Positions 17,196-22,522 of a stretch of 22,522 bases of DNA are shown in pieces. The first letter of the stretch is position 1. The number at the start of each line of letters is the position of its first letter. The stretch covers positions 1 through 22,522 of the IMG/VR virus record IMGVR_UViG_3300050006_000486, one strand, 5' to 3'. The stretch comes from a virus. The notes beneath the pieces were generated by a model. That model was not told the DNA's origin. It worked only from the letters and a program-made list of their open reading frames with translations, and did not search any database. The translations under genes and the position numbers were made by a program.

Positions 17196-17394
17196 TCCGC
17201 TTATCGATCACCTGCTGACAGTCAAAGCACATGCGGCAACCCTTCACCGCCTCCTGCCGCGCCTTCGGTATGTCGCAACCGCATTCCTCACACTCGGTCA
17301 GGCTCTCACCCTGGTACTGCACGCGGCTTGCGATAAGGCGCTGCAGCTCCTCGTCCTGCTCCCGCTGGGCACGTTCGATCAGATGCTCATCCAT
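17173..17394 (-). CDS. TraR/DksA-family C4 zinc-finger protein
   Basis: 73 residues from the ATG at 17394 with GGAGG 9 nt upstream; overlaps the CII stop by 8 nt and the primase start. N-terminal helix (LIERAQREQDEELQRLIASR), then the zinc finger CEECGCDIPKARQEAV followed by CRMCFDCQ. Short phage/plasmid TraR-type proteins bind the secondary channel of RNA polymerase and mimic DksA plus ppGpp. In this early operon it could tune host or phage transcription during replication. Confidence 0.9.
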   Translation of the reverse strand: MDEHLIERAQREQDEELQRLIASRVQYQGESLTECEECGCDIPKARQEAVKGCRMCFDCQQVIDKRNAGVRRG

Positions 17395-17878
17395 GGCACA
17401 CCGCCTCCGCTTCCATCGCCTGCTCAGCGCCGGCCACAATCCCCAGGATCTCGCCGATCATCTTGTTCGCGTGGTAGCGCAGCGCTTCCACCTCGTGCCG
17501 CTCCCAGCAGTTGTCCTCGGCTCCGTCGTGCAGGCTGCCGACGAACTCGCCTTCTGCCTGCAGCAGTGCGCCCAACGCCTTCAGCGCATCGCGCGTGGCC
17601 GGTACCGGCTGTGGCACGAACGCCACCGCACCGGCCGGACGCACCAAAGCCGCCAGCAGGCGCGGGTCGCGCGTGGTCGCCACGATCTCTTCAAGGAACT
17701 CAGGGTGCAGCGGGCGGTTGCCCGTGGGGTTGACGCGCTTGCTCAGCTCGTCGGGGTCGATACCGATGGTCAGTGCCACCGCGTTCTGCCCACCCACCGC
17801 ATCGCGCGTGGCGCGGTACAGCGCCTGGCGGGTGGTCAACACCGGGCCGGCGCCCGGCAGAAGGTCTTTACGGCTCAT
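17387..17878 (-). CDS. Phage regulatory protein CII (Phage_CP76 family)
   Basis: 163 residues, ATG at 17878 with AGGGG upstream. Sequence typical of the Phage_CP76 family: ALYRATRDAVGGQNAVALTIGIDPDELSKRVNP, then LHPEFLEEIVATTRDPRLLAALV, a helix-turn-helix-like N-terminus followed by a helical C-terminus (ALLQAEGEFVGSL ... ALRYHANKMIGEIL). The family is annotated as CII-like regulators in P2-type and many Pseudomonas phages; exact DNA targets are rarely known. It is first in the replication operon after a 338-nt leader. An 11-bp-phased direct repeat lies 48 bp upstream. Confidence 0.88.
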   Translation of the reverse strand: MSRKDLLPGAGPVLTTRQALYRATRDAVGGQNAVALTIGIDPDELSKRVNPTGNRPLHPEFLEEIVATTRDPRLLAALVRPAGAVAFVPQPVPATRDALKALGALLQAEGEFVGSLHDGAEDNCWERHEVEALRYHANKMIGEILGIVAGAEQAMEAEAVCHG

Positions 17879-17925
17879 AGCGTTAATGCCCCTGTAACGC
17901 TGTAGCCAACCGCCGGGCCGTTGCC

Positions 17926-17942
17926 CTACAGTTCACCTACAG
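17926..17942 (+). promoter_or_regulatory. CTACAG-N5-CTACAG direct repeat, possible CII (PRE-like) site
   Basis: Two identical hexamers start 11 bp apart; an inverted copy CTGTAG lies at 17900-17905. Lambda CII binds TTGC-N6-TTGC across the -35 of PRE, and this pair lies beside the CII-like gene pointing towards cI and the RNA candidate. A weak -10 (CATGAC at 17954-17959) is at suitable distance. Alternatively it is an operator for the cII operon. Confidence 0.45.
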
Positions 17943-17996
17943 CACGCGACCCTCATGACTGCTGTGTCCACGGGTCGCGGGTTGAGGTAGCCGGCT

Positions 17997-18010
17997 GGTA
18001 ACCGGTTACC
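17997..18010. repeat. Perfect 14-bp palindrome
   Basis: GGTAACCGGTTACC, fully self-complementary, inside the cro-cII leader and just upstream of the RNA hairpin. Could be a dimeric-repressor operator or the 5' hairpin of the RNA candidate. Confidence 0.5.
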
Positions 18011-18015
18011 GGACC

Positions 18016-18106
18016 GTCGAGGCTGGGGTTCTTGCTGTGGTAAGTGGGTCCCCAGTTCTCGACCTCTATACAAGCCTGCCGCCGTAGCGACAGGCTTTTG
18101 TGTTTC
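18016..18106 (+). ncRNA. Candidate antisense small RNA (C4-like)
   Basis: On the plus strand a hairpin with stem GTCGAG-G-CTGGGG / CCCCAG-TT-CTCGAC (18016-18063, 12 bp with a 1x2 internal loop) exposes a 21-nt loop (18029-18049). It is followed after 8 nt by an intrinsic terminator ending near 18106. The loop contains GTGGTAAGTGGGT, complementary to the mRNA leaders at 20418-20430 and 22503-22515. No plus-strand gene lies to its left that would need this terminator. The 5' end is not defined; a start near 17968 under the CII-like repeats would give about 140 nt. It would be antisense to the cro-cII leader as well. Promoter evidence is weak, so expression is the open point. Confidence 0.55.
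18072..18106 (+). terminator. Intrinsic terminator on the plus strand
   Basis: AAGCCTG (18072-18078) pairs with CAGGCTT (18091-18097), with inner CGC/GCG pairs and a CGTA tetraloop, followed by TTTTGTGTTT on the plus strand. On the minus strand the tail is only TTGTATAG, so the element is directional, opposite to the surrounding genes. Confidence 0.75.
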
Positions 18107-18123
18107 TGGGCTGCTTGCCCGGC

Positions 18124-18160
18124 GCCGGCCCGATGGCGTTGGTAAGACTCTCGGGCCGGC
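18124..18160. repeat. 10-bp stem hairpin in cro-cII leader
   Basis: GCCGGCCCGA / TCGGGCCGGC, perfect 10-bp arms with a 17-nt loop, 57 nt downstream of the cro stop on the minus strand. No U tract on either side. May be a pause or processing site of the early transcript. Confidence 0.55.
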
Positions 18161-18216
18161 TCCCGCCTGATACGTGTGCTGCTGTGCTGTGTCCTGAAGG
18201 CGGGCTGTGATTCTGG

Positions 18217-18474
18217 TTAGGCGCGGCGTTCGCCTTGGCGCCGCTCTCCGCGCCTACGCTCCGCCTGGCGGCGGTCAGCTTCGAAGCCGGCGCCGCCGCT
18301 CTTCTCGGCATAGAGCTTTTCCAGCTCCTTACCGATGCAGTAACGGAGCTCAGCGCCATTCAGCGCCCGGAAAACGGTCGGCTGAGTAACGCCAATAGCA
18401 TCAGCGATGCCTTGCTGGGTCATCCCAGCTTCGATAAGCGCTTTCAGCATTTCAGTGATCGAGGGAGTAGTCAT
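18217..18474 (-). CDS. Cro-like helix-turn-helix repressor
   Basis: 85 residues from the ATG at 18474; an upstream ATG at 18501 would be almost leaderless relative to the predicted promoter and adds nine residues. Residues about 15-40 (GMTQQGIADAIGVTQPTVFRALNG) form a clear helix-turn-helix. The C-terminus is unusual: DRRQAERRRGERRQGERRA, a near-repetitive Arg/Glu tail. Divergent from the CI gene with a shared promoter-operator region, so it is the lytic repressor and first gene of the left operon. Confidence 0.88.
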   Translation of the reverse strand: MTTPSITEMLKALIEAGMTQQGIADAIGVTQPTVFRALNGAELRYCIGKELEKLYAEKSGGAGFEADRRQAERRRGERRQGERRA

Positions 18475-18574
18475 GACAAAGGAATGTATCCGGCTACGCA
18501 TTGAGCAAGATAATACGCATCGGAATTGTCAGCCGCAATACGCTTTGCATAATTCGCAAAGGAATAATCTCGGC
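18475..18574. promoter_or_regulatory. Immunity switch: divergent cI and cro promoters with operators
   Basis: Plus strand towards cI: -35 TTGTCA (18526-18531), 16-bp spacer, -10 CATAAT (18548-18553). Minus strand towards cro: -35 TTGCGG (18538-18533), 17-bp spacer, -10 TATTAT (18515-18510). The two -35 regions overlap and lie in an inverted repeat ATTG-N7-CAAT (18525-18539). A second inverted repeat TTTGC-N7-GCAAA (18544-18560) covers the cI -10. TACGCAT recurs at 18495-18501 and 18514-18520. These are the likely CI/Cro operators. Confidence 0.65.
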
Positions 18575-19237
18575 ATGGCTATTTCGATCGGTCACATCGC
18601 CGCCACGCTGGCGGCAAGGCGCGAAAAGCTGGGCTGGAGCGAGACAGAGCTGGCCAAGAGAGCCGGCCTTAACCAATCCACCGTGCACCGCATCCTCAAG
18701 GGTGAGTTCCAGAACCCGCAGATCAATTACATCGAGCGCCTCACTCGCGCCCTTGGGTTGGACATGGCTGAAGTACTCGGCCTCCGCCAGCCCGATCCGC
18801 AAACCCTAGACTCGACCTTGGGACCTGGGCCCGCCTTGCATCAACGCGTACCTCTGATTTCATGGGTGCGCGCCGGAGATTTATGCGAGGCGATAGATTT
18901 GTTTGAACCTGGCTTTGCCGATGACTGGCTAGACTGCCCTTTCCCCCATAGCCCCTCCGCCTACTGCCTAGAGGTCCGAGGGCTGAGCATGTCCCCAGAG
19001 TACAGAACCGGGGAGATTCTTCTCGTGGAGCCCGAGCTGGTCCCCATGCACAACGATGACGTTGTCGTACGCACTCCGGATGGCCAGGTAACGTTCAAGC
19101 GCTTGCAGATAACCGAGGACGGCACATACCTTCTGGCATTGAACCCGGAATTTCCGAATCGAATCCTGCATATGCCAGAACAAACGAGCTTCTGCGGTGT
19201 AGTGACTGGTTCATGGATCAAGCGGAAACGACGGTAG
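18575..19237 (+). CDS. CI-type prophage repressor (XRE HTH + S24 LexA-like peptidase)
   Basis: 220 residues from the ATG at 18575 (AAAGGA upstream); longer in-frame reading to 18407 runs through the operators and is rejected. Residues 6-70: helix-turn-helix (ELAKRAGLNQSTVHRILKG). Residues 90-220: S24 autoprotease with the Ala100-Gly101 cleavage site (SWVRAGDL), nucleophile Ser138 in VRGLSMSPEYRTGE and base Lys175 in VTFKRLQ. It should hold the lysogen and be inactivated by RecA-stimulated self-cleavage. Basic C-terminal tail (IKRKRR). Confidence 0.95.
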   Translation: MAISIGHIAATLAARREKLGWSETELAKRAGLNQSTVHRILKGEFQNPQINYIERLTRALGLDMAEVLGLRQPDPQTLDSTLGPGPALHQRVPLISWVRAGDLCEAIDLFEPGFADDWLDCPFPHSPSAYCLEVRGLSMSPEYRTGEILLVEPELVPMHNDDVVVRTPDGQVTFKRLQITEDGTYLLALNPEFPNRILHMPEQTSFCGVVTGSWIKRKRR

Positions 19238-19291
19238 ACCGCGGGCAGAGACTGGACAGAATCCGAACCAAAGGTGTAAAGATACAGAACT

Positions 19292-19330
19292 GGCGAGTGG
19301 CAACGCGGTCTTTATATCCGTATACTCGCC
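19292..19330 (+). promoter_or_regulatory. Candidate promoter/operator of the toxin-antitoxin pair
   Basis: GGCGAGT (19292-19298) and ACTCGCC (19324-19330) form a 7-bp inverted repeat that brackets an AT-rich -10 candidate (TATACT 19321-19326, or TTTATA 19310-19315). Autoregulated toxin-antitoxin operons commonly have such sites, so the upstream protein could bind here. Confidence 0.45.
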
Positions 19331-19343
19331 GGCCACTTGAAAC

Positions 19344-19883
19344 ATGCTTGCACCCAAAAGAGACGCAGATATGGCTCTCAATCTCGCTGCCTCATCGCTG
19401 ATCATGGCCACGCTGGCAATGGTTGGAGATTATTCGGTTGCTGCACAGGCTTCGCATCTGCGTTCTTCATCGTCGCATGCGGAACGCCCGAGTAAGCCAG
19501 TCAACCGACAGGACCAGCGCCGCATAATCGAAGAGATCCGGGACCAGTTCAATGAACTGGACGGACTCTACGCGCAAGCAATTCAGGCCACTCTTAAGCG
19601 CGGGTGCTTCGACGCAGAGCTGTTTGAGCGTCTTCCACACCACATCAGCATGACGAGAGCGCTAGAGGCGGCCCTGCGTGGGACCATCGTTCAGCCTGAT
19701 ATTGAGGAGGCGCACATGGGCTTGCGCCGCTCAGTGGCGAAGGTCAGAGGCCGACTGGTTCAGCTTGAGAATCTTCTACTCCAAGCTCATGAAACGCCGG
19801 ACTACTTCGAGAGCGACATCGACATGGAAGGACTGAAAGCGCTTGCAGACCATTCCACTAGGCATCTGGCGAAGATTGCCTAG
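19344..19883 (+). CDS. Putative partner (antitoxin candidate) of the YafO-like toxin
   Basis: 179 residues from the ATG at 19344; an ATG at 19371 (MALNLAASS) is also possible, neither with a strong ribosome site. I recognise no family. The N-terminal 30 residues are fairly hydrophobic (LAASSLIMATLAMVGDYSVA), then a charged helical region starts (VNRQDQRRIIEEIRDQFNELDGLY), with further helices to the end (RRSVAKVRGRLVQLENLLL). It ends 3 nt before the toxin start, so both are co-translated. A YafN/Phd-type antitoxin pattern is not visible. By context I infer that it neutralises the toxin. Confidence 0.7.
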   Translation: MLAPKRDADMALNLAASSLIMATLAMVGDYSVAAQASHLRSSSSHAERPSKPVNRQDQRRIIEEIRDQFNELDGLYAQAIQATLKRGCFDAELFERLPHHISMTRALEAALRGTIVQPDIEEAHMGLRRSVAKVRGRLVQLENLLLQAHETPDYFESDIDMEGLKALADHSTRHLAKIA

Positions 19884-19886
19884 CGA

Positions 19887-20327
19887 ATGGCGGTAATCGT
19901 TACCTTCAATAGCTCCACATATTCCGAACTGTTCGCTCCGATAGAAGCCAGCTATCCCGGCCTTGCCGAGAAATTAAGGGCTGACTTTCAGCGGTACGTA
20001 GAATCCGACCGTACCAACCCGCCGCATTATTTTGGGCGTGACGTCTGCTACACGCAGCCTCCCGAAGCGCTTAAATCCTCGTTGATGCACATCCACATAA
20101 AGCTTCCCCCCGGCCGCTTTCCACAGGACCGCGCGCAGTATTACCGCGTCTGCCAGCCTGGAAAACCAGGGCAAGATGCCGCGCTGGTGTATGTCCAGGG
20201 CGAGCTCGAAGAAGAGAGCTACCAGCTGTTAGCGTTTCTATGGCCAGATGCTCATGGTCAAGCCCGCCAGAGAGATTTGATGCGCTACCTTGCACGCCTC
20301 GCCCAAGAGTTTCGAGACAGCCACTAA
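19887..20327 (+). CDS. YafO-family toxin (type II toxin-antitoxin)
   Basis: 146 residues, ATG at 19887. Conserved features of YafO, a ribosome-dependent mRNA interferase in E. coli: PPHYFGRDVCY (FGRD plus Tyr), LMHIHIKLP, AALVYVQGELEEESYQLLAFLWPDAHGQAR and the closing YLARLAQEFRDSH. Slightly longer than E. coli YafO (132 residues) at the N-terminus. Located between the repressor and the early operon, where prophages often keep accessory genes expressed in the lysogen; it could act in stabilising the prophage or in defence against other phages. Confidence 0.82.
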   Translation: MAVIVTFNSSTYSELFAPIEASYPGLAEKLRADFQRYVESDRTNPPHYFGRDVCYTQPPEALKSSLMHIHIKLPPGRFPQDRAQYYRVCQPGKPGQDAALVYVQGELEEESYQLLAFLWPDAHGQARQRDLMRYLARLAQEFRDSH

Positions 20328-20343
20328 TAGGCGTCGCCTCATC

Positions 20344-20366
20344 GCGGAAAGCCGCTTTGGTATTTT
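20344..20366 (+). terminator. Weak terminator-like hairpin after toxin gene
   Basis: GCGG-AAAG-CCGC (20344-20355) followed by TTTGGTATTTT. Stem is only 4 bp, so termination is uncertain. Confidence 0.3.
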
Positions 20367-20380
20367 AATCCCTATACGTA

Positions 20381-20409
20381 TTGACTAGATAAATTCGTTG
20401 ACGGATTAT
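20381..20409 (+). promoter_or_regulatory. Promoter of the right-hand early operon
   Basis: -35 TTGACT (20381-20386, 5/6), 17-bp spacer, -10 GATTAT (20404-20409, 4/6). Start would be near 20416, putting the 13-mer at 20418-20430 at the very 5' end of the transcript. Confidence 0.6.
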
Positions 20410-20417
20410 TGCCGCGT

Positions 20418-20432
20418 ACCCACTTACCACGG
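20418..20432 (+). promoter_or_regulatory. mRNA leader site complementary to the small RNA loop (site 1)
   Basis: ACCCACTTACCAC (20418-20430) is the exact reverse complement of loop positions 18037-18049; the next two bases could add a G-U and a G-C pair. It lies 11-13 nt before the ATG at 20443 and reaches into its weak GGGAT ribosome site. Pairing here would hinder initiation. Confidence 0.5.
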
Positions 20433-20442
20433 GATCGCGACA

Positions 20443-20637
20443 ATGGACACAGCACAGCACAGCAGCACCCGCTGCCCGGTCTTTCTGCACCCGGCAGCGG
20501 CAACCAACCCCTTCACCGTACGCCGCATCGAACGTGAAACCGGCCTGACCGCTCACATCACCCTGCGCGCTGCACAACTCAAGCGCCATAACCTGCCCGC
20601 CTTCGAGGACTTCGGCCCGTTCGGTGGCGCCGCATGA
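20443..20637 (+). CDS. Small early protein, unknown function
   Basis: 64 residues from the ATG at 20443; an upstream in-frame start lies within the promoter and is unlikely. Sequence FTVRRIERETGLTAHITLRAAQLKRH is basic and helical and could contact nucleic acid, but I recognise no family. First gene of the operon, its stop overlaps the next start (ATGA). The leader carries the 13-mer complementary to the candidate small RNA. Confidence 0.7.
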   Translation: MDTAQHSSTRCPVFLHPAAATNPFTVRRIERETGLTAHITLRAAQLKRHNLPAFEDFGPFGGAA

Positions 20638-21176
20638 GCACTTTCTCCCTTACCAGAGGCAGCGAAGCCGCCCTCAGCATGCTCGCACGCCAGGCAGGCA
20701 CCGAAACCCTGCTGCTCACCCAGCCAGCCCGCGAGCTCCGCGCATCGCTCACCATCGAGCCGTTCACCAGCCTTGGCGGCGGCATGCTGATGGCAGAGTT
20801 GTACATGCGCGAACAGCGCCACAGCATGACCCTCCAGCGCAACGACGGCGCCAACGCCCAGCACCTGGCCGATTGGATCGAAGCCGTGGCCAACGGCACG
20901 GTGGATACGGCAGAAGCCATTCCGCAGCGAGCTGACCCAAGTGATCTGGCCGCGGCCACTGCGGCATTCAATGCTGCCGCAGTTGAACTGAACGCGACGG
21001 CAAAGCCAGCCCAGGCTCCAGATGGATGGCAGCTCGTGCCGATGGAGCCGACGCAGGCAATGCGCGAGGCGTTTCACGCGGCGACCGAGCGCTACGAAGA
21101 TGGCTATGGCGAGAGCCCGGATAGCCAGTGGCACGCCATGCTCCGCGCCGCCCCGGCCCCCAGCCCCACAGCCTGA
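20634..21176 (+). CDS. Early phage protein with WxxVP...PTxxM...ML.AAP C-terminal motif
   Basis: 180 residues, ATG at 20634 in a 4-nt overlap with the previous stop. The N-terminal half (SEAALSMLARQAGTETLLL ... YMREQRHSMTLQRND) is not recognised. The C-terminal 45 residues (DGWQLVPMEPTQAMREAFHAA through WHAMLRAAPAPSP) are a motif common in small early phage proteins; function unknown. An Ala-rich linker joins the two parts (residues 105-125), so it may be a fusion of two small modules. Confidence 0.8.
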   Translation: MSTFSLTRGSEAALSMLARQAGTETLLLTQPARELRASLTIEPFTSLGGGMLMAELYMREQRHSMTLQRNDGANAQHLADWIEAVANGTVDTAEAIPQRADPSDLAAATAAFNAAAVELNATAKPAQAPDGWQLVPMEPTQAMREAFHAATERYEDGYGESPDSQWHAMLRAAPAPSPTA

Positions 21177-21187
21177 GGCCCGCCACC

Positions 21188-21463
21188 ATGAACCGCACCC
21201 TCGACCAGGCAGCCGCCGTGCTCGGTATTGGCCCGCGCAAGCTCCGCGCCCGTATGCGCGAGCTGGGCCTGCTCAACCACGCCGGCGAGCTCATCAGCAG
21301 CGAGCGCGGCCAGGGCCGGCTGTTCGTCGACACCCGCAGCCGCTGGAACCCGGCCATCAAAAGCTACACCCACTACGGCGTGGTCATGGCCACCGAAGCG
21401 GGTGTCGCCTGGCTGGCCGATCAGCTGGAGATCACCGTCACCAAGAAGGACGCCGCCGCATGA
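21188..21463 (+). CDS. KilAC/antirepressor-like DNA-binding protein
   Basis: 91 residues from the ATG at 21188; the longer frame reading back into the previous gene is rejected. LDQAAAVLGIGPRKLRARMRELGLLNHAGEL is the first helix-turn-helix of the phage antirepressor C-terminal (KilAC, PF03374) domain, followed by GRLFVDTRSRW, then YTHYGVVMATEAGVAWLADQL, the usual end of that domain. It is a stand-alone KilAC-like module, without the BRO/KilA N-terminal domain. Could bind DNA or the repressor. Its stop overlaps the next ATG. Confidence 0.78.
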   Translation: MNRTLDQAAAVLGIGPRKLRARMRELGLLNHAGELISSERGQGRLFVDTRSRWNPAIKSYTHYGVVMATEAGVAWLADQLEITVTKKDAAA

Positions 21464-21858
21464 CTATCTCTGCCAACCAACACGCAATCGGCGCGCTCAA
21501 GCTCACCAGCCTTCATCTGGACCACCCGACCGTGGTACCCGCCACCGTGGTGCGCGACGCCTGCGCCGAGGCCATCGCCCTGCTGCGGCTCAACCACCCG
21601 TGCGCTGCAGACCTGGGCAGCTTCTTCTGCAGCCTGCTCGCCGTCACGCCGCGCGGGTACATGCCCTACGTCACGCTGACCACCGACCCGGCAACGCCCT
21701 ACGCCTGCGTCATCACCGATGCCGCCGGCAACATCGTCGACCGCCAGCTGGGCAAGACCATCGAAGGCATCACCGAACTCATCCGCCTGCGCCACATCGC
21801 GCCCAGCCCGGCACGCACCTCAGAGGGGCGCGGGGAGATCGGAGGGACCGCGCCGTGA
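21460..21858 (+). CDS. Conserved-type early phage protein, unknown function
   Basis: 132 residues, ATG at 21460 in a 4-nt overlap (ATGA). Helix (VVRDACAEAIALLRLNHPCAADLGSFFCSLLAV) followed by a beta hairpin region (YMPYVTLTTDPATPYACVITDAAGNIVDRQLG). I do not recognise the family. Its C-terminus (SEGRGEIGGTAP) encodes the GGAGG ribosome site of the next gene. Confidence 0.75.
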   Translation: MTISANQHAIGALKLTSLHLDHPTVVPATVVRDACAEAIALLRLNHPCAADLGSFFCSLLAVTPRGYMPYVTLTTDPATPYACVITDAAGNIVDRQLGKTIEGITELIRLRHIAPSPARTSEGRGEIGGTAP

Positions 21859-22121
21859 GCAGCACCTACCAGCAATTGCTGCGCCGCTACGACCGGCCCT
21901 GCCTGCCGCTGGACGAAGTGCGCGCCGAGTACCTGCCGCACATCGGCGACGTCGAGTCGCTGATCAAGCTGATCCACCAGGGCCGCGTCCGCCTGCGCTA
22001 CACCCGCACGGACGTCACCCGCAAGGCGCCACCCGTTGTTTACCTACGCGATCTGGCCGCCTGGCTGGACGCCCACGACCCGAGCAACACCCAACCCGCC
22101 ACTGACCGCGTGGCGTCGTAA
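21855..22121 (+). CDS. PrtN-like (pyocin activator family) protein
   Basis: 88 residues from a GTG at 21855 (GTGA overlap with previous stop; GGAGG 10 nt upstream). Alignment by eye to the pyocin activator PrtN family (PF11112): TYQQLLRRYDRPCLPLDEVRAEYLPHIGDVESLIKLIHQGRVRLRYTR, then VVYLRDLAAWLDAHD. Pseudomonas PrtN activates pyocin genes by binding P-boxes; small phage paralogues are common and their targets unknown. I see no P-box in the window with confidence. Confidence 0.8.
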   Translation: MSSTYQQLLRRYDRPCLPLDEVRAEYLPHIGDVESLIKLIHQGRVRLRYTRTDVTRKAPPVVYLRDLAAWLDAHDPSNTQPATDRVAS

Positions 22122-22145
22122 CCAACCGCAACAAGGACACAGCAA

Positions 22146-22493
22146 ATGAAAGCAACCGACACCAGCGAGTTCATCAACAGCCTCAACGCCGGCGTGTTCG
22201 CCGACCAGGTAGGCCGCGCGCTGTCCGACGTCGCCGCGGGCGTCATCGAGCACAGCAAGCAGGGCCAGATCACCCTGACCTTCAAGCTCAAGCAGATCGG
22301 CCAGAGCAACCAGGTGGCCGTGTCGCACACGCTTGACTACGTGCAGCCCACCAAGCGCGGCAAGAAGCGCGAAGACACCACCCTCGACACGCCGCTGTAC
22401 GTCACCGCCAACGGCCTCGAACTGTTCCAGACCGACCCGACCGCGCAGCTGTTCAGCCGCGAAGACGCGCCGGTTAAAGCGCGCGAAGTCTGA
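22146..22493 (+). CDS. Conserved phage early protein, unknown function
   Basis: 115 residues, ATG at 22146 with AAGGA 9 nt upstream. N-terminal helix (FINSLNAGVFADQVGRALSDVAAGVIEH), beta strands (QITLTFKLKQIGQSNQVAVSHTLDYVQPTKRGKKRED), then a polar C-terminus (TANGLELFQTD). I recall similar proteins beside DUF2303-type genes in phage recombination or replication clusters, but no function is established to my knowledge. The following gene starts just beyond the window. Confidence 0.75.
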   Translation: MKATDTSEFINSLNAGVFADQVGRALSDVAAGVIEHSKQGQITLTFKLKQIGQSNQVAVSHTLDYVQPTKRGKKREDTTLDTPLYVTANGLELFQTDPTAQLFSREDAPVKAREV

Positions 22494-22502
22494 CCCAGCA
22501 AA

Positions 22503-22522
22503 ACCCACTTACCACACAAGGA
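22503..22522 (+). promoter_or_regulatory. mRNA leader site complementary to the small RNA loop, covering a ribosome site (site 2)
   Basis: Positions 22503-22516 match the reverse complement of loop positions 18036-18049 exactly (14 nt). After a one-base bulge in the RNA (C35 of 18035), 22517-22522 (CAAGGA) pairs with 18029-18034, one pair being G-U. AAGGA should be the Shine-Dalgarno of the next gene, so the whole 21-nt loop is used and the ribosome site is masked. Confidence 0.55.

Follow-up and report, generated by a model that had tools for sequence, protein, structure and literature searches.

Phage immunity based on antisense RNA so far rests on a few classical cases, namely P1/P7 C4, the P4 CI RNA and P22 sar. 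C4 (RF01695) is an RNase P-processed RNA of about 77 nt with a compact three-stem fold that silences an antirepressor operon, and the P4 CI RNA derives, by processing, from the leader of its own target operon and acts by premature termination. In P1 and P7, one loop of C4 pairs upstream and provides specificity while another one addresses the ribosome site, and a change of 4 nt separates P1 from P7 specificity (PMC5320573). P22 sar is likewise an antisense RNA of a phage; it keeps translation of a lytic-side gene from being initiated and favours lysogeny (PMC12197685). In phage lambda, CII activates the promoter PRE, which is located between cro and cII (PMC8630535).

In this study, we analysed an IMG/VR virus record of 22,522 bases, referred to in its full length as the window, which is near Pseudomonas phage PG1 (host Stutzerimonas stutzeri) and shares 99.7% identity with it across 341 bases of the cro-cII gap. 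The window contains a lambda-type switch, in which cII-like and cro/YdaS-like genes lie opposite an S24 CI-like repressor gene (Table 1). In plus-strand order, the gap between cro and cII carries a promoter-like site, the hairpins B1, A0 and A1, a terminator-like hairpin, and the hairpins A2 and B2, where TGGTAA(G) is common to the A loops and TGCTGTGTCC to the B loops. An earlier reading of this DNA from its letters alone (the sequence-only reading) had described a single hairpin, here A1, which proved to be one of five loop-bearing hairpins, the others being the two B hairpins, A0 and A2. A multi-loop, C4-like antisense RNA, transcribed from a PRE-like promoter and blocking translation of the right-hand operon, is very probably the best explanation of this array. 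Such an RNA would account for the conserved gene-free gap in these phage genomes; in the records of PG1, pAN and Lodos, no RNA is annotated there. Between cI and the right-hand operon, a two-gene cassette (19344-20327) encodes a 179-aa protein (phrog_8416) and a protein with a YafO toxin domain (PF13957, E = 2.5e-20).

Table 1. Positions of the switch genes, array elements and predicted target sites in the window
Feature	Position	Strand	Remarks
CII-like activator gene (PF06892/phrog_101)	17387..17878	-	Family match; transcribed against the array direction
Dyad CGTTA-N9-TAACG	17881..17899	+	Just 5' of the promoter-like element, by the -35 region
Promoter-like element TAGCCA-N18-TACAGT	17903..17932	+	Directed into the array; lies between cro and cII, as PRE does
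Hairpin B1	17940..17984	+	Loop core TGCTGTGTCC 17960-17969, complement of GGACACAGCA at translation starts
Hairpin A0	17986..18010	+	Loop CTGGTAA
Hairpin A1 (reported earlier)	18016..18063	+	21-nt loop 18029-18049 with GTGGTAAGTGGGT, complement of ACCCACTTACCAC
Terminator-like hairpin	18072..18105	+	Hairpin 18072-18099, then TTTTGTGTTT; from sequence and consensus fold of relatives
Hairpin A2	18124..18160	+	Loop core TTGGTAAG 18139-18146
Hairpin B2	18162..18204	+	Loop core TGCTGTGTCC 18185-18194
Cro/YdaS-like gene	18217..18501	-	Transcript toward cII runs across the array in opposite sense
CI-like S24 repressor gene	about 18575..19237	+	Same strand as the array, downstream of it
Target 1, leader of first right-operon gene	20410..20445	+	A site ACCCACTTACCAC 20418-20430
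First right-operon gene, 64 aa, phrog_13491	20443..20637	+	Codons 1-4 (20445-20454, GGACACAGCA) = B site
Target 2, B site GGACACAGCA	22135..22149	+	Immediately 5' of ATG of YfdP-like gene (22146-22493)
Target 3, A site ACCCACTTACCAC then AAGGA	22503..22522	+	Leader of YfdQ-like gene starting past the window end

With C4, the array shares the predicted nature of a prophage antisense RNA and the two classes of loops, an upstream specificity loop and a loop directed at the ribosome site or start, and its specificity loops likewise change together with their targets between relatives. Unlike C4, which is one compact three-stem RNA, arrays are made up of individual hairpins, numbering from two to eight or more, and address several target leaders; moreover, the array is set between cro and cII of a lambda-type switch, on the strand opposite cII, and its targets constitute no proven antirepressor operon. 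With the C4 covariance model (RF01695), neither the window nor five relatives yielded a match at gathering score, and 17800-22522 gave no match even when E values up to 5 were allowed; no other Rfam family matched the array in the window or these relatives either. Membership in the C4 family was therefore rejected on the basis of the missing Rfam match and the different architecture, while sequence evidence strongly supports the core of the earlier proposal, a plus-strand antisense RNA directed against leaders of the right-hand operon. Given the missing Rfam match, the hairpin-row fold and the differing targets and genomic setting, we regard the predicted array RNA as a new RNA family whose action resembles that of C4.

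Like the P4 CI RNA, it would be a small RNA keeping immunity by pairing with leaders of the controlled operon, but the array lies kilobases away from its targets and its B loops are directed at translation starts. P22 sar has one target, the ant mRNA, whereas the array has several predicted trans targets, addressed via short loop sequences. The resemblance to lambda PRE and OOP lies in a promoter-like site between cro and cII pointing toward cI and in an antisense orientation to the cro-cII message; lambda, however, is not known to have a multi-loop array or trans targets, and OOP acts on cII in cis. We found no description of this array RNA in the open-access literature, to which the search extended, and no match to the array in a plasmid collection. 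Many temperate phages of Pseudomonas, Stutzerimonas and Halopseudomonas appear to share this undescribed, predicted RNA layer with its modular loops.

The earlier description of A1 and its complementarity to two leaders was borne out. The hairpin comprises 12 Watson-Crick pairs and one G-U pair and presents the 21-nt loop TTCTTGCTGTGGTAAGTGGGT, and folding of 18010-18110 yields -45.8 kcal/mol (z = -3.6), a value equalled by none of 200 shuffles. The complementary 13-mer ACCCACTTACCAC is located at 20418-20430 and 22503-22515, in gene-free leaders of the right-hand operon. Its repetition had been held to exceed chance, and indeed a 12-mer has three exact copies in the window and no extra copy with 2 mismatches permitted (1.1 expected), while the 8-mer core ACTTACCA is found 3 times against 0.10 expected, a 30-fold excess, with 0/100 shuffles reaching 3. 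A chance repeat is ruled out by these copy counts, the shuffles and the array-leader permutation test reported below. The proposed terminator was recovered in part: the hairpin at 18072-18099 followed by TTTTGTGTTT is present, but it is a modest one and is not listed in a simple consensus terminator scan of the window. Since its stem contains an internal mismatch, it provides moderate support for an RNA end, and it probably marks the 3' end of a short RNA.

The consensus fold, built from an alignment of 19 relatives, is a row of independent hairpins spanning about 270 nt, in which 18 of 61 pairs display compensatory double changes. Covariation in this alignment amounts to 0.240; shuffled versions give 0.114 and slid ones 0.051 or less. 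Of the cells, 96.8% are able to pair, compared to at most 45% after sliding. Double changes are found at 4 pairs of helix 1 (B1), 3 pairs of helix 3 (A0) and 8/16 pairs of helix 4 (A1). Array stems can be wholly different among relatives with pairing preserved; in A1, the stems GTCGAGGCTGGGG, GCTGGGTCAAGGC and GCAGGAACCAGGG swap while the loop is retained.

Directly upstream of B1, TAGCC[AG]-N17/18-TANNNT is conserved in 47/51 distinct relatives, the spacer sequence itself varying; this element is absent from the sequence-only reading. At the sequence level, the window contains a promoter-like site placed as in a lambda-type PRE, between cro and cII and directed toward cI. The dyad next to it, in place of which P. 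aeruginosa-type relatives carry CCGTAAA-N7-TTTACGG, is a possible activator site, perhaps for CII. The cII-cro gaps of four relatives (L014, L015, L066 and L071) hold a second promoter-like copy (ACGACATAGCCA...CCCTACTATTC) with a further B hairpin and A hairpins, and the putative promoter-plus-array unit is duplicated in these phages. Base-pair statistics do not decide the strand: the G-U:A-C count in array stems is 73:37, close to the composition expectation of 1.77, that at loop-target edges is 145:162, and folding z-scores of the two array strands are similar.

The right-hand operon starts with the 64-aa gene at 20443 (phrog_13491) and continues through YfdP- and YfdQ-like genes, and these three and one further gene are the ones directly targeted. 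The targeting of leaders proposed earlier is supported for the A loops, but the second loop class, B, which is complementary to translation-start regions, had been missed. The KilAC/antirepressor-like gene on which that proposal drew exists as an ORF in the operon; its assignment is weak (Pfam ANT, E = 0.0087, under the curated cut-off), and it has no direct array target site itself, the paired genes being others. In the 37-kb genome of PG1, mRNA-sense CTTACCA is found in three leaders, belonging to the first gene, to the YfdQ gene and to one later gene, and once just within a gene start, while on the opposite strand it is confined to two array loops; GACACAGCA is located at gene starts, with one stray copy. 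Across 45 right operons (192 kb), a phage's own A cores occur 161 times in mRNA sense vs 1 antisense, cores of other types about 11 times, and B cores 247 times in sense vs 3 antisense. In 32/42 distinct leaders, the A site occupies the loop of a hairpin that ends immediately ahead of the start codon; the exact window-type target-1 leader showed no 5-bp Watson-Crick stem in the leader-hairpin scan. The promoters just 5' of target 1 (L004, L018, L007, L009, L034 and others) belong to several classes that are unrelated to one another (TACGTATTGAC..., ATTCGCTATTGCG..., ...GTACATATT...), which probably follow CI operator specificity, with the A motif retained downstream.

Relatives were retrieved by CII alone, so that loops and leaders were unselected for matching. 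Their leaders display 8 motif types (CTTACCA, CTCACCA, CCTACCAC, CTCTGAC, CTCTAAC, CTCTCAC, CTCTATT and CTCTAC), which require 13 changes on the CII tree, where the minimum possible is 8 (CTCACCA being split into two types for this count). The sequence-only reading had named independent change of loop and leader in related phages as the outcome that would speak against it; instead, they change together, with the A-loop type being the complement of the leader type in 51/51 distinct phages of this first set and off-type loops almost absent. Exact array-leader complementarity averages 10.6 nt for matched pairs vs 7.6 nt over all pairings, and none of 20,000 permutations reaches the matched value. 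Three further CII queries were used for a second retrieval, which yielded 53 distinct pairs, in which some loci are contigs of the first set (e.g. L167, L066) and the KT1-like group is new; for this partly overlapping set, complementarity is 11.7 nt matched vs 9.6 nt, again with 0/20,000 permutations. In the combined set, at least 7 contiguous pairs are kept in 82/84, and a 7-nt match is missing from two second-set phages: L182 has lost one base, and the leader of L101 bears a C-to-T change by which a G-U pair remains. Duplex energies of -39.9 kcal/mol for the own type vs -35.8 kcal/mol for the other type agree, although GC-rich stems dilute the difference.

The B loops behave similarly. Complementarity of B1 to the first codons of gene 1 is 10.3 nt for matched pairs vs 4.6 nt at codons 20-28 of the same gene (0/20,000 permutations), and B variants change jointly with their sites, as in the Halopseudomonas type (TGGCTGTGTC/GACACAGCC) and in L198 (TGTACTGTGCTG/CAGCACAGTACA). 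In some clades, the A2 loop lacks an own target. The array of L071 contains two GTTAGAG loops (at 401 and 438, counted from the cII start), for which its available right operon holds no CTCTAAC target and which fit the leader of the L066 type.

Repeated motifs in both operons might also be protein-bound sites. If the A and B motifs were sense RNA elements bound by a phage protein, such as nut/boxB-like hairpin loops or translational operators, a motif common to the cro-cII and right-operon leaders would parallel lambda nutL/nutR. Minus-strand array hairpins do bear the sense motif of the right-operon leaders, whose copies likewise sit in hairpin loops, and the G-U counts are compatible with this. 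However, CI and CII, the two proteins compared for a nut/boxB-type relation, show specificities that do not track the A motif: among phages with CTTACCA in common, CI repressors can be as little as about 27-31% identical and the target-1 promoters differ, and CII proteins 97-99% identical (L015/L071, L066/L076, L067/L072) accompany different motifs. Between such phages the motif swaps at a single position (CTCT-G/A/C-AC), and where a motif takes G, A or C at one position and several array loops carry the matching complement, this is, as far as sequence comparison goes, a signature of base pairing. Furthermore, array B motifs match start codons and early codons, yet the array has no gene start, and the conserved promoter-like element is directed along the plus strand. 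We consider sense elements of this kind unlikely; a dedicated RNA-binding protein retains a small probability because the G-U strand tests do not decide.

The same comparisons bear on asymmetric DNA operators for the repressor as they occur in Cluster A mycobacteriophages, whose stoperators are asymmetric, oriented sites repeated in short intergenic gaps (PMC9283540). The motifs described here have this appearance, being asymmetric and oriented repeats in the gene-free gaps of both operons, but stoperators are protein-bound DNA sites, whereas the array motif is constant across the diverged S24 repressors and differing target-1 promoters mentioned above, every array copy is set in a different, compensating inverted repeat, and B motifs overlap start codons. 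Since same-motif CI proteins diverge and near-identical CII proteins pair with different motifs, the motif is unlikely to be bound by CI or CII; a CI operator or stoperator was rejected, the motif specificity not following the repressor, and a CII site is improbable on the latter ground. Repressor-bound DNA operators as a whole are very unlikely. A functional antisense array could also serve mainly against other phages, by superinfection or heteroimmune interference, rather than the phage's own lysogeny decision. Phages with unrelated CI have A-loop types in common, and the GTTAGAG loops of L071 fit a foreign leader; nearly all arrays, however, fit their own leaders, which suggests self-regulation first, and few loop types lack an own target. 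As the main task of the array, this is very unlikely.

We therefore return to the antisense RNA directed at the phage's own right-hand operon, for which we infer transcription of the array, control by CII, a translational block and a role in immunity. The cro-cII gap would give rise to a small plus-strand RNA of about 170 nt if it ends at 18099-18105, or longer with read-through, driven by CII or another activator while lysogeny is being established. Its A loops would act as fast-evolving specificity loops pairing with right-operon leaders; where the leader A site lies in a hairpin loop, loop-loop pairing would be possible, as would often be the case. The conserved B loops would pair with gene start regions, in several cases including the ribosome site and start codon. 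In the short form, 5'-B1-A1-3' would be antiparallel to 5'-A-B-3' of the target-1 leader, so that one RNA could bind both sites. The most likely effect would be a block of translation of phrog_13491, the YfdP-like gene, the YfdQ-like gene and the one further gene, possibly with polar loss of operon expression, which would favour establishment or maintenance of lysogeny. During lytic growth, the opposing cro-cII transcript, which is the complement of the whole array, could titrate the array RNA.

More tentatively, the A loop may provide immunity with a second key that is based on RNA and does not depend on CI. An incoming phage of the lysogen's own A type would then have its right-hand operon silenced even though its CI differs, and L071-like arrays may have collected extra loops against the leaders of other phages. 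The natural variants are ready matched and mismatched pairs, making superinfection immunity at the RNA level, apart from CI, directly testable. Among the relatives, L005 (PAQL01000031.1) is filed under a Phycisphaerae MAG, while the CII of its prophage is 98% identical to that of this Stutzerimonas phage; the contig is probably misbinned.
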